IMG/VR virus record: IMGVR_UViG_3300044213_000051
Location: 23,218-87,217 of that record
Direction: 5' to 3' (one strand)
From: a virus
DNA: 64,000 bases
The position numbers and the translations under genes are program-made. Positions 11,525 through 64,000 of the stretch are shown in pieces. The stretch's first letter is position 1; the number at the start of each line of letters is the position of its first letter. The notes under the pieces are model-generated. The model searched no databases. It had not been told where the DNA came from and was given only the letters and a program-made list of their open reading frames with translations.

Positions 11525-12067
11525 TTATTCCTTAATCTTATTGATTACATAGAAAAAATTATTTTTTGATTCTCTCATGTATTCAACGACTTCTAAATTG
11601 TTTGCCAATAAATTATTTAGCTCTTGTTGTGTTTCTTCATTTATTGCAACAACAGTTCCATCAGCTAAAACATAATCAAGTTTATTTTCTATGATCGAAT
11701 CCAATTTGTTTAAAGCACGAATTTTTTGAACAACTGGATCTACTGTAAATAGTTTAGAAGAAGCAAGCTCTACGTATGATTCAATTAACTGTTCTGTAAC
11801 TTTAATGTCGTAATATTCTTTAATGATAGTAGCGATACGAGATTCAGACATCTCTTCGTATATTTCCTGAGCGACTTCTTTTTCTAAATTTTCTGAGTAA
11901 TGTTTATTCTTAACAAATATTCTTGCTTCTTCTAACTCTTTAAACTTTGTCTCTTCACCATCAATTAAGATAGAACCTTCGGTAGTCTTTTCAATAAGAC
12001 TACCAAAAGAACGGATCGACTCAGCGATTCCTGTTTTTAGAGATTTCTTAAACTGGGTAAAATACAT
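11525..12067 (-). CDS. gp68: gp68-like prohead core protein
   Basis: 180 aa, helical, charged protein beginning MYFTQFKKSLKTGI. The name rests mainly on order: T4 has 20-67-68-21-22-23, and this gene is the second between gp20 and gp21. T4 gp68 is a minor internal core protein that affects head length. The segment FKELEEARIFVKNK and the acidic C-terminal half suit a scaffold-like protein. It abuts the gp67-like gene with a 1 nt overlap. Confidence 0.6.
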   Translation of the reverse strand: MYFTQFKKSLKTGIAESIRSFGSLIEKTTEGSILIDGEETKFKELEEARIFVKNKHYSENLEKEVAQEIYEEMSESRIATIIKEYYDIKVTEQLIESYVELASSKLFTVDPVVQKIRALNKLDSIIENKLDYVLADGTVVAINEETQQELNNLLANNLEVVEYMRESKNNFFYVINKIKE

Positions 12068-60767: not shown

Positions 60768-61514
60768 ATGTCAGACCAAGAATATCAAATGAGTGCGAGT
60801 GAGAAGAAAAAAGAAGATTGGATGAACAGTAAATGGCGTCCAATGATGGGTTGGATGTACATGGGTGTTTGTATTTTCGATTTTATGATAGCACCAATTT
60901 TATGGTCTCTGATTCAATCATTAGCTCACGGTCAAGTTAATGTTCAATGGCAACCTTTAACTCTACAAGGTGCTGGTTTATTCCACGTTGCGATGGGTGC
61001 TGTTCTTGGTATCGCTGCTTATGGGAGAACTCAAGAGAAACTGAATGGTGCTAATAATGGTGGCCTTCAATTACAAGGTGGTACAACATATCAAGTTCCA
61101 GGTCAAATGAACAATGGTATGGGTGGTATGGGTATGAATTCAGGTATGGGTGGTATGGGTATGAATTCAGGTATGGGTGGTATGAATTCAGGTACGAACA
61201 GTGGTTTCGGTGGAGGTATGAATAATGGATCATCAGGATTTGGTTCGTCAGGTGGCTTCGGTTCACCTAGCGGCAGCTCAGCATTTGGCTCTCCTTCGAC
61301 AGGAGGATTCGGTTCCCCAAGCTCGAGTTTTGGTTCAACACCAGCACCTAGCCCAACACCAACAAGCAGCTTTGGTAGCAGTTCAGGATTTGGAACGCCA
61401 GCGACTCCACCAACACCAAGCCCAATTCCAAAACCAACACCAAGTGTAAATTCGTCAATAAATAGTTCTGCTGGAGATCCGCCAGCAAGAAACACAAGGA
61501 ATGATATTCAATGA
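60768..61514 (+). CDS. holin-like membrane protein with Gly/Met/Ser/Pro tail
   Basis: 248 aa. Two hydrophobic segments: residues about 26-52 (RPMMGWMYMGVCIFDFMIAPILWSLIQSL) and 67-86 (GAGLFHVAMGAVLGIAAYG), preceded by a charged cytosolic start (SEKKKEDWMNSKW). The pattern resembles phage 2-3 TM holins. Residues 100-248 are low complexity: GGMGMNS repeats, then GFGSPS, then Pro/Thr/Ser-rich. The tail is unusual for a holin and may be a linker or aggregation-prone region. AAAGG precedes the ATG. No endolysin gene is adjacent; lysis role is inferred. Confidence 0.7.
   Translation: MSDQEYQMSASEKKKEDWMNSKWRPMMGWMYMGVCIFDFMIAPILWSLIQSLAHGQVNVQWQPLTLQGAGLFHVAMGAVLGIAAYGRTQEKLNGANNGGLQLQGGTTYQVPGQMNNGMGGMGMNSGMGGMGMNSGMGGMNSGTNSGFGGGMNNGSSGFGSSGGFGSPSGSSAFGSPSTGGFGSPSSSFGSTPAPSPTPTSSFGSSSGFGTPATPPTPSPIPKPTPSVNSSINSSAGDPPARNTRNDIQ
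61114..61195 (+). repeat. tandem GGMGMNSGM coding repeat
   Basis: Direct repeats of about 30 nt (GGTATGGGTATGAATTCA and variants), three units, in the tail of the holin-like gene. Likely unstable in length. Confidence 0.75.
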
Positions 61515-61921
61515 ACGTACATGATAATTTGTCTGAAGTTTTTGATGTTCCAACTATAACCAAAACTACAGAAGTGATTGATAATAGTACTGGTGAGATA
61601 GTAGAATCACCAACACAAAAAATTGAAAGTGACTACGATAAAACTCGTGGTAATCTTCAAGAATTATTATTAAAGGGACAAGAAGCATTGAACGCTGCTC
61701 TAGAGGTAGCTAAGCAATCTGAGCACCCACGTGCTTTTGAAGTTGTAGGTAATTTGATGAAACAACTTGCTGACATAAATCAGCAGCTTATGGATATCCA
61801 TCAACAGAAACAAAAACTTGATGGACCAAAGGCAGAGAAAGTTACAAATAATAATGCTATCTTTGTTGGTAGCACAGCTGAATTGAATAAACTAATCAAG
61901 AATATGTCTAAAGGAGAGTGA
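61511..61921 (+). CDS. gp16: gp16 terminase small subunit
   Basis: 136 aa (T4 164). Small terminase that recognises DNA and stimulates gp17. Match: DYDKTRGNLQELLLKGQEALNAALEVAKQSEHPRAFEVVGNLMKQLADINQQLMDIHQQ (the T4 helical pair with the S-P/H-P-R turn) and the end NNAIFVGSTAELNKLIKNM. In T4 it is directly before gene 17; here it is in the tail-hub operon, opposite in direction to gp17 and about 43 kb away. ATGA overlap with the holin-like gene. Confidence 0.88.
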   Translation: MNVHDNLSEVFDVPTITKTTEVIDNSTGEIVESPTQKIESDYDKTRGNLQELLLKGQEALNAALEVAKQSEHPRAFEVVGNLMKQLADINQQLMDIHQQKQKLDGPKAEKVTNNNAIFVGSTAELNKLIKNMSKGE

Positions 61922-61923
61922 CA

Positions 61924-62637
61924 ATGGCTTTACCGATTAATACAACGGCACAATATAATTTAACAATTCCGTCTAGTGGCGAACGTGTTAAATTTAGACC
62001 ATTTTTGGTGAAGGAAGAAAAAGCACTGTTGCTGGCGCAGCAAAGTGAAGATCCTATTACTATGGTTGAAACATTAAAAGATATTATTGAAGCGTGTGTG
62101 ACTGGAGATTATAAAATTGATAATCTAGCCACGTTTGACTTAGAATATATCTTCACGCAAATTCGTGGTAAGTCAGTTGGGGAAACTGTTGATCTATTGT
62201 TCCCATGCGACACATGTGATGACGAGAAAGCTAAAGTTAAAATCTCTTTCGACATTACTAAGATTCAGGTTGAGAAATCACCTGAACACAATAAGAAAAT
62301 TGAGTTGTTTAATGATGTTGGTGTAGTTATGCGTTACCCAACAGTCCAAACAATCTCTAGACTAGAAAACTTAAAAGCTGACACAATTGATGATATTTTT
62401 GATATTGTTGCTGGCTGTATAGACTTCGTTTATCAAGGTGACGAAGTATTCTATGGTAAAGAACAAACTAAAGAAGAACTGTTAGAATTTTTGAATAATT
62501 TAACTTCTGAACAATTTAAGAAGATTCAAAAGTTCTTCGAAACAATGCCTAGACTGAAACAAGAAGTTCATTATAACTGCCCTGTCTGTGGCAAACAACA
62601 CGATAAAGTTTTGGAGGGTCTCCAAAGTTTTTTTTAA
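61924..62637 (+). CDS. gp26: gp26-like baseplate hub assembly protein / tape-measure chaperone
   Basis: 237 aa, T4 base plate protein family (gp26, 208 aa). Start ATG 61924 (MALPINTTAQYNLTIPSSGERVKFRPFLVKEEKALLLA) with GGAG upstream; a GTG six nt earlier is not needed. Two CxxC pairs (FPCDTCDD and NCPVCGK) suggest a zinc site. The last codons run through an 8-T tract and a T-TTT-TTT slip site before TAA, preceded by GGAGGG. It ends TAATG with the 63 aa gene, which is in the -1 frame. Position before the tape measure fits a tail-assembly chaperone. Confidence 0.82.
   Translation: MALPINTTAQYNLTIPSSGERVKFRPFLVKEEKALLLAQQSEDPITMVETLKDIIEACVTGDYKIDNLATFDLEYIFTQIRGKSVGETVDLLFPCDTCDDEKAKVKISFDITKIQVEKSPEHNKKIELFNDVGVVMRYPTVQTISRLENLKADTIDDIFDIVAGCIDFVYQGDEVFYGKEQTKEELLEFLNNLTSEQFKKIQKFFETMPRLKQEVHYNCPVCGKQHDKVLEGLQSFF
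62613..62634 (+). other. candidate -1 programmed frameshift signal
   Basis: GGAGGG (62613-62618), 9 nt, then the heptamer T-TTT-TTT (62628-62634) in the zero frame, then TAA. GGAG...CTCC could also form a small hairpin. The -1 frame is open into the 63 aa gene, so slipping would give a gp26 fusion of about 300 aa. The layout is that of bacterial -1 sites such as dnaX. Confidence 0.6.
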
Positions 62638-62828
62638 TGAACCTTTGTCATGAAACCTTATATAATCATTATAAACTGAATTTCGCTTTAATGCAGTACC
62701 ACAAATACTCTCTGACGGAACTTGATAATATGATACCATTCGAAAGAGAATTATATGTGTCTATGTTGGTGAAGTATCTAGAGGAAGAAAAACAAAGGTT
62801 AGAACAACAAAAAATGAGAAGAAGCTAA
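62637..62828 (+). CDS. small tail-assembly protein (63 aa), possible frameshift extension of gp26
   Basis: 63 aa, helical: LYNHYKLNFALMQYHKYSLTELDNMIPFERELYVSMLVKYLEEEKQRLEQQK. The P-F-E-R-E-x-Y and L-E-E-E-K ending is a pattern seen in short proteins ahead of tape measures. It has its own ATG within TAATG of gp26, so it can be made by reinitiation, by frameshift, or both. It ends 1 nt before the tape-measure ATG. Confidence 0.75.
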   Translation: MNLCHETLYNHYKLNFALMQYHKYSLTELDNMIPFERELYVSMLVKYLEEEKQRLEQQKMRRS

Positions 62829-62829
62829 G

Positions 62830-64000
62830 ATGGCAAAACCACCGATTCAAGTTCACGTATCTTCAAGCGATTTTGGAAAATTACTCCAATTACAGGCGGA
62901 GAGCGTAAAACAATTATCAACTGTTAAGGAGATTCTTGAAAAAGGATCTGGTGGTTCAGATTCACCTCAAAAAATTCAAATTGATATTCTTAGCACTTTA
63001 CAGAAACAACTTAAAGTTCAAAATGATTCGTATAGAAGCCAAAAAGAGTTTGAGAAACAATGGAGAGATGAAGCCAAAGAAATAGCAGATTTTTCTAAAG
63101 GGCTGGCATCAATTAAATCCGTTTCTGAAAGAATTGGAGATTTTGGAAAAAATCTCAAGGGGATGTTTAGTTTACCAACAACCAGATCATTAAAAGAAAA
63201 ATTTAATTTTTTTGGTATCATGGACAAGTCAATTGCCCGTGATGATTTTATTGAAAAACAGAAACTACTTGGAACAAAAAGAACAACCAAAGAGTTAAAA
63301 GAAGATTTCGAAGAAGCACACAAGACATCAAAAGAGATGTCTGCAAATGACCAAAGATTAGAGTATATTAAACAACAAACTGGCATACATGACGAAGAAA
63401 AACTTCGTTTGAGTTCACCAGAAGCACATAGTCTAATAGAGAAACGAAGAGATTTAGCAGACAAATATAGTGGACTAGATTTGGCAAGTGAACAGTTTAG
63501 CGACGACCCAGTATATCGTTTAAATCCTGGCTCGAAAGCTCCGCAGAAAACTGTTGCAACGCAAGCACAACAAAATAAAGAAGATGATCATAATGAAAAA
63601 GCGATTGAAGGTGATCGTAAAAACGAACATATTATTAAAACTCTAGATCAAATCGCAGAAAACACAGGTGGTAAACCTGGACAAACAAACGTAGCACAGA
63701 AAGGTGCTGAACCAGCAGGTGATGGTGGTTTGATGGGTAAGATCGGTAAAGGTCTTAACTCATTAGGCGAAGGATTAAAGGGTTTAGCAACTGGAATGGG
63801 CGAAGGTATTAAAGCAATTCTAACAGGAATTGCTGAGGGTGTTAAGGCATTCGGTAGTATGGATGTTCTTAAGGGTGCTTTAGTAATGGGTGTTCTTGGT
63901 GGTGCTGTTTGGGTAATGGGTAAAGCATTACAAGAATTCTCTGACCTTGATTGGGAAACAATCGGTAAAGGTTTAGTCGCCGTTGCTGGCTTCGGTGCTT
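62830..64000 (+). CDS. tail tape-measure protein (partial)
   Basis: First 390 codons; runs off the right edge. Residues 1-300 are charged, coiled-coil helices (LQKQLKVQNDSYRSQKEFEKQWRDEAKEIADF). Then come Gly/Ala/Leu-rich hydrophobic segments (MGKIGKGLNSLGEGLKGLATGMGEGIKAIL; LKGALVMGVLGGAVWVMGKAL; GKGLVAVAGFGA), which look like the membrane-active part of tape measures. It sets tail length and helps DNA entry. T4 gp29 is the functional equivalent. Preceded by two chaperone-like genes. Confidence 0.85.
   Translation, partial: MAKPPIQVHVSSSDFGKLLQLQAESVKQLSTVKEILEKGSGGSDSPQKIQIDILSTLQKQLKVQNDSYRSQKEFEKQWRDEAKEIADFSKGLASIKSVSERIGDFGKNLKGMFSLPTTRSLKEKFNFFGIMDKSIARDDFIEKQKLLGTKRTTKELKEDFEEAHKTSKEMSANDQRLEYIKQQTGIHDEEKLRLSSPEAHSLIEKRRDLADKYSGLDLASEQFSDDPVYRLNPGSKAPQKTVATQAQQNKEDDHNEKAIEGDRKNEHIIKTLDQIAENTGGKPGQTNVAQKGAEPAGDGGLMGKIGKGLNSLGEGLKGLATGMGEGIKAILTGIAEGVKAFGSMDVLKGALVMGVLGGAVWVMGKALQEFSDLDWETIGKGLVAVAGFGA

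Follow-up and report, generated by a model that had tools for sequence, protein, structure and literature searches.

The locus lies in an 87-kb viral fragment from a T4-like phage, IMG/VR record IMGVR_UViG_3300044213_000051, and the window, by which we mean the whole stretch of DNA that was analysed, comprises 64,000 nt (positions 23,218-87,217 of that record). A gp26 homologue of 237 aa occupies 61924..62637 on the plus strand, with an alternative GTG start at 61918 and a TAA stop at 62635-62637; by direct reading, its 3' end is ...CTC CAA AGT TTT TTT TAA. The last two sense codons carry, in phase, the slippery heptamer T_TTT_TTT (62628..62634, plus strand; X_XXY_YYZ), and GGAGGG (62613..62618, plus strand), a putative internal Shine-Dalgarno-like stimulator, lies 9 nt 5' of it; both features are as the initial annotation had described them. 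That annotation also had the -1 frame running open into the next gene, and the sequence confirms it: near the gp26 end, the open stretch of this frame begins at stop-28. The -1 frame extension (62634..62828, plus strand) has 64 codons and a stop at 62826-62828, and the codons after a -1 slip are TTA ATG AAC CTT TGT CAT... Most of it coincides with a 63-codon ORF encoding 63 aa (62637-62828, plus strand; -1 relative to gp26), for which a TAATG stop-start overlap (62635..62639, plus strand) offers a possible but unconserved reinitiation start. The predicted fusion of gp26 and the extension is 301 aa long, and its predicted junction peptide contains LQSFFLMNLCHETLYNHYK.

Directly after the extension lies a tape-measure-like gene (62830..64000, plus strand), whose 3' end is missing at the contig end and whose tape-measure matches are weak (phrog_4372, E 4e-4; phrog_339, E 3.5e-3); in HTVC008M, a 'putative tail tape measure' gene is found at a similar position, with one small gene between. 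Further upstream, between the tail tube and small terminase genes, the window contains a gene for a holin-like protein (60768-61514; PF11351, phrog_3427) with a long, repetitive Gly/Met/Ser-rich C-terminal tail.

Protein families and predicted structure

The gp26 homologue matches PF12322 with an E value of 4.6e-66, which exceeds the curated cut-off, and phrog_150 with an E value of 2.9e-72, and it is assigned as the putative short form of a tail assembly chaperone (TAC-N, gpG-like). The extension is a candidate T-like domain (TAC-C). Its 63-aa ORF has two matches, one to phrog_634 (E 1.4e-24) and one to the C terminus of phrog_150 (239-279 of 282, E 6e-5); the second hints at a gp26-extension fusion. 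In marine T4-like phages, the extension carries the annotation gp51. It is predicted to be helical, with a first helix just past the junction (residues 5-21), so that an internal start at a later Met would lose that helix.

Searching PDB sequences with a gp26 profile produced no useful match. In the fold comparison, the top PDB match of the AF2 model (pLDDT 85) is 2OB9, a tail assembly chaperone of HK97, found weakly by Foldseek (E 0.75, probability 0.63) and by VIA-align with a Z of 7.8 (rmsd 3.9 over 83 residues, gp26 residues 1-85), a value below the clear threshold and one that unrelated models may also attain. The match is suggestive, not conclusive, of a tail assembly chaperone fold in the modelled N domain of gp26; 2OB9 has about 107 residues compared with 237 in gp26, and the sequence identity is 7%. 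The second-best structural match of the model, PDB 5ir0, is a protein of unknown function from a Vibrio cholerae PICI-like element; its Z of 5.5 over residues 6-91 is under the clear threshold, and it could be a chaperone relative.

Conservation of the slip site and coding in the -1 frame

The relatives come from IMG/VR and were retrieved with peptide patterns that, in the first scan, were spread across gp26 but excluded its end and, in the wide scan, lay far upstream of the slip site; because the patterns lie away from the gp26 end, the set of loci is unselected for the slip site. An alignment extended to distant members (A2) proved too divergent to be used for scanning contigs, and a Kuja-virus query added only one locus. 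After annotated phages had been added, the loci dereplicated at 90% identity and the Ackermannviridae set aside, 105 loci remained. Every one of these 105 non-redundant loci carries an in-frame T_TTT_TTN at the gp26 end (T_TTT_TTC in 74, T_TTT_TTT in 30 and T_TTT_TTG in one), and in 101 of the 105 the heptamer lies 0 or 1 codon 5' of the stop, while internal Phe-Phe pairs of the same genes, used as a control, carry the heptamer in 3/105. Loss of the T tract or of the -1 phase in close relatives would have told against a frameshift; the T tract is retained throughout this set, and the -1 phase of the extension is kept in all non-Ackermannviridae relatives examined. In the 55 window ORFs (20,190 codons, 38% GC), T_TTT_TTY occurs in frame seven times; the number expected by chance at the terminal codons of these ORFs is about 0.04. 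A T_TTT_TTC also lies in frame in another window ORF, 11527-12067 on the minus strand, eight codons short of the stop.

A GGAGG-like element precedes the heptamer by 9-10 nt in most loci, and it is under selection at synonymous sites. Across the 105 loci, the Glu codon within the element is GAG in 65 and GAA in 20 (65/85), as against 572 GAG and 1643 GAA (26% GAG) elsewhere in the same genes, and predicted pairing with the anti-Shine-Dalgarno sequence is -7.57 kcal/mol versus -5.48 kcal/mol in synonymous shuffles (Wilcoxon p 5e-13, which is indicative because the loci are related). Downstream of the slip site, a stimulatory hairpin or pseudoknot was sought and rejected: single-sequence folding gave z values of about 0, RNAalifold returned four pairs without covariation, and an Rfam search of the region had no match at gathering thresholds.

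Immediately past the slip site, the -1 frame shows the pattern of change of a coding sequence. Over 48 nt beginning 9 nt after the slip-site start, counting single-change codons in pairs of at least 75% identity, the ratio of synonymous to non-synonymous changes in the -1 frame is 759/512 = 1.48, against a neutral expectation of 0.28 and values of 0.13 and 0.15 in the other frames; the pairs are non-independent, and the ratio is descriptive. By this measure, purifying selection acts strongly on the -1 frame, starting at the zero-frame stop. In the -1 frame, no ATG, GTG or TTG precedes the conserved His of the extension in 52/103 loci, nor the conserved Asn, 10 residues past this His, in 23/103, and the extensions of those loci cannot start alone at full length because no start codon lies before the conserved residues. 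The starts annotated for gp51 fall at inconsistent internal positions, leaving an ORF of 45 aa in HTVC008M and of about 30 aa in P-HM2, and in other phages gp51 is unannotated; the recoding proposed here explains such small 'gp51' ORFs with missing or shifting starts in marine T4-like phages.

A candidate -1 frameshift and its alternatives

T4 gp51 is a full-length paralogue of gp26 (PF12322, E 3.9e-52) that runs on into the same extension, matching phrog_150 over 13-280 of 282. In hhalign comparisons, the alignment of the frameshift products with T4/Konradin gp51 crosses the junction (E 1.9e-13), and that with gp26 ends at the junction (E 3.7e-21). T4 gp26 is the homologue of the short product predicted here and T4 gp51 that of the long one; the two T4 proteins differ in being encoded by separate genes, 26 and 51, on opposite strands, without a slip site. 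Separate genes 51 and 26 were found in five sampled phages (T4, Konradin, Stupor, RB43 and Aeromonas phage 25), and T_TTT_TTN is absent from the gp26 end in all five; the TTTAAAG of RB43 is unrelated. In the Stupor record, both proteins, gp51 as well as gp26, bear the name 'tape measure protein assembly chaperone'. The window locus, by comparison with the T4-type split (a second, fused gp26 paralogue and no slip site), has the slip site, and the 87-kb record, itself a fragment, has only one gp26-like gene. In RB43 (L152:2501-3794), gp51 and then gp26 form tandem overlapping genes on one strand, followed by gp25; this arrangement fits an origin of genes 51 and 26 by duplication, and its order is plausible as an intermediate between a frameshifted single gene and the divergent 26/51 of T4.

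Judged from its sequence, the locus is a tail assembly chaperone locus of the G/GT type (TAC-N/TAC-NC). We hold with high confidence that one message yields the chaperone pair, TAC-N as the short and TAC-NC as the long product, by a -1 slip on T_TTT_TTT, and the programmed -1 frameshift that the initial annotation placed between gp26 and the 63-aa protein is supported by the conserved heptamer and by coding selection in the -1 frame. In our model, the majority of ribosomes would terminate at the gp26 stop and release the 237-aa short form. A minority would be held near the stop codon, at or beside the A site, where the internal GGAGGG may act as a pause element by pairing with 16S rRNA; the P- and A-site tRNA-Phe would then slip back in tandem, both re-pairing with TTT, and the slipped ribosomes would read on in the -1 frame to give a minor 301-aa long form with a 64-residue helical extension. 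If the proteins act as lambda G/GT do, the N part common to the short and long forms may coat the tape measure protein, and the extension may recruit the tail tube protein. Such a scheme is very probably correct on the basis of the anatomy, the conservation, the coding selection, the homology to T4 gp26/gp51 and the fold similarity, from which we infer the slip itself and the chaperone roles.

The same data weigh on other ways of explaining the arrangement. In a genome of 38% GC with seven T_TTT_TTY in the window, one might imagine that an AT-rich gene ends in T by chance and that the small gene next to it is unrelated, yet the expectation at ORF ends, the conservation among relatives and the selection on the -1 frame leave this explanation virtually no credibility, and we regard it as refuted by the relatives. 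Transcriptional slippage, in which RNA polymerase would insert or skip a base within the T8 run and an edited message would encode the long form, can draw on the eight T in a row in this genome, where one extra T would lead into the same frame. Such slippage normally needs a run of roughly nine, and in the 74 relatives with T_TTT_TTC the C limits the run to six T before it; moreover, the geometry for a tandem tRNA slip is in phase at every locus, and a selected upstream Shine-Dalgarno-like element fits ribosomes. We consider slippage by the polymerase very unlikely.

Translational coupling would instead make two separate proteins and no fusion, the 63-aa ORF being begun at the ATG of TAATG by termination and reinitiation. 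The TAATG of this genome could permit reinitiation here, and similar stop-start overlaps occur in KVP40, K571, YB07 and AF3. The ATG is, however, gone in the closest relative, L002 (about 90% identical; TAATAA), and in most others, the overlap being found in 8/105 loci, and about half of the loci are without a start codon before the conserved extension. In addition, coupling leaves unexplained both the slip heptamers and the selection on the -1 frame upstream of possible starts, and T4 gp51 is a covalent fusion; we rate it as extremely improbable. Given this scarcity of start codons, and with GGAGGG lying about 18 nt from the ATG, the suggestion that the alternative start in TAATG provides the free short form was abandoned as a conserved route.

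Known chaperone systems and the Ackermannviridae

The arrangement proposed here resembles lambda G/GT and P2 E/E', in which a short form and a rarer -1 form are made just 5' of the tape measure gene; the present tail is of the contractile T4-like type, and no sequence similarity to the lambda and P2 chaperones is expected. The P2 slip site is poly-T, as here, and that of lambda is G_GGA_AAG. Similarly, E. coli dnaX has a Shine-Dalgarno-like element about 10 nt 5' of its slip heptamer, a spacing close to that seen here, but uses A_AAA_AAG together with a downstream hairpin, of which none was found at this locus. Among T4-like phages, the 2022 study of Vladimirov, Gautam and Davidson (Virology 566:9-15) reportedly describes frameshifting as conserved in several groups, with genes 26/51 in T4. 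A 2016 review by Atkins had called the G-T frameshift widely conserved 'except T4' (PMC5009743), and papers citing the 2022 study credit it with the finding of a short gene plus a fused long gene in place of frameshifting in some T4-like phages (PMC10885494) and with poly-T slip sites in the TAC-N genes of T4-like phages (PMC12846349). As represented in those papers, the T4-like chaperones of Vladimirov et al. share with this locus the PF12322 family, a poly-T slip near the TAC-N 3' end, the extension and the 26/51 split in the T4 group, and we see no difference in kind; the present locus comes from an uncultivated relative and has T_TTT_TTT directly before the stop.

A frameshifted chaperone is already known for T4-like phages, and this locus is a good new example, not a new kind of system. 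Of the earlier proposal that a frameshift here would link T4-type gp26 with the G/GT chaperones, the link is supported, through PF12322, the 2OB9 match and the T4 gp51 fusion, and its newness is not, since the link is credited to Vladimirov et al. 2022. Relative to that paper, as known through those citing it, our analysis adds a quantitative test, the Shine-Dalgarno-like element and the Ackermannviridae exception. It makes a quantitative case that gp26/gp51 fusion by recoding operates in most T4-like lineages and that the T4 group, with its two genes, is the exception. In addition, T4 gp51 and gp26, long puzzling, become testable as tape measure chaperones, an idea published in 2022.

Kuttervirus, Taipeivirus, Kujavirus and the related Vibrio phage D524 again have the extension, homologous by hhalign (E 6e-8), after gp26 in the -1 frame. 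None of the Ackermannviridae loci examined has the tandem slippery heptamer at the gp26 end, where only NTT_TTY is left: these phages and D524 carry ATT_TTC, CTT_TTC or CTT_TTT in its place, with one codon between it and the stop. The zero-frame stops lie at L039:2239, L045:3239, L046:3239, L048:3119 and L050:3242, with further loci in L134-L148, and the segment of interest for the shift in the Ackermannviridae is ATTTTCATTTAATTTTTG. One tentative reading, which we consider possible but doubtful, is that a stereotyped cassette, consisting of a GGAGG-like element 9-10 nt upstream, a poly-T slip and a stop 0-1 codons later with no RNA structure, serves T4-like phages of cyanobacteria, alpha- and gammaproteobacteria, and that the Ackermannviridae might use a different, undescribed shift, as if by a single P-site tRNA-Phe slip on NTT_TTY. 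Kuttervirus EP75 has an open -1 frame only from stop-10, and any -1 shift must therefore fall there.
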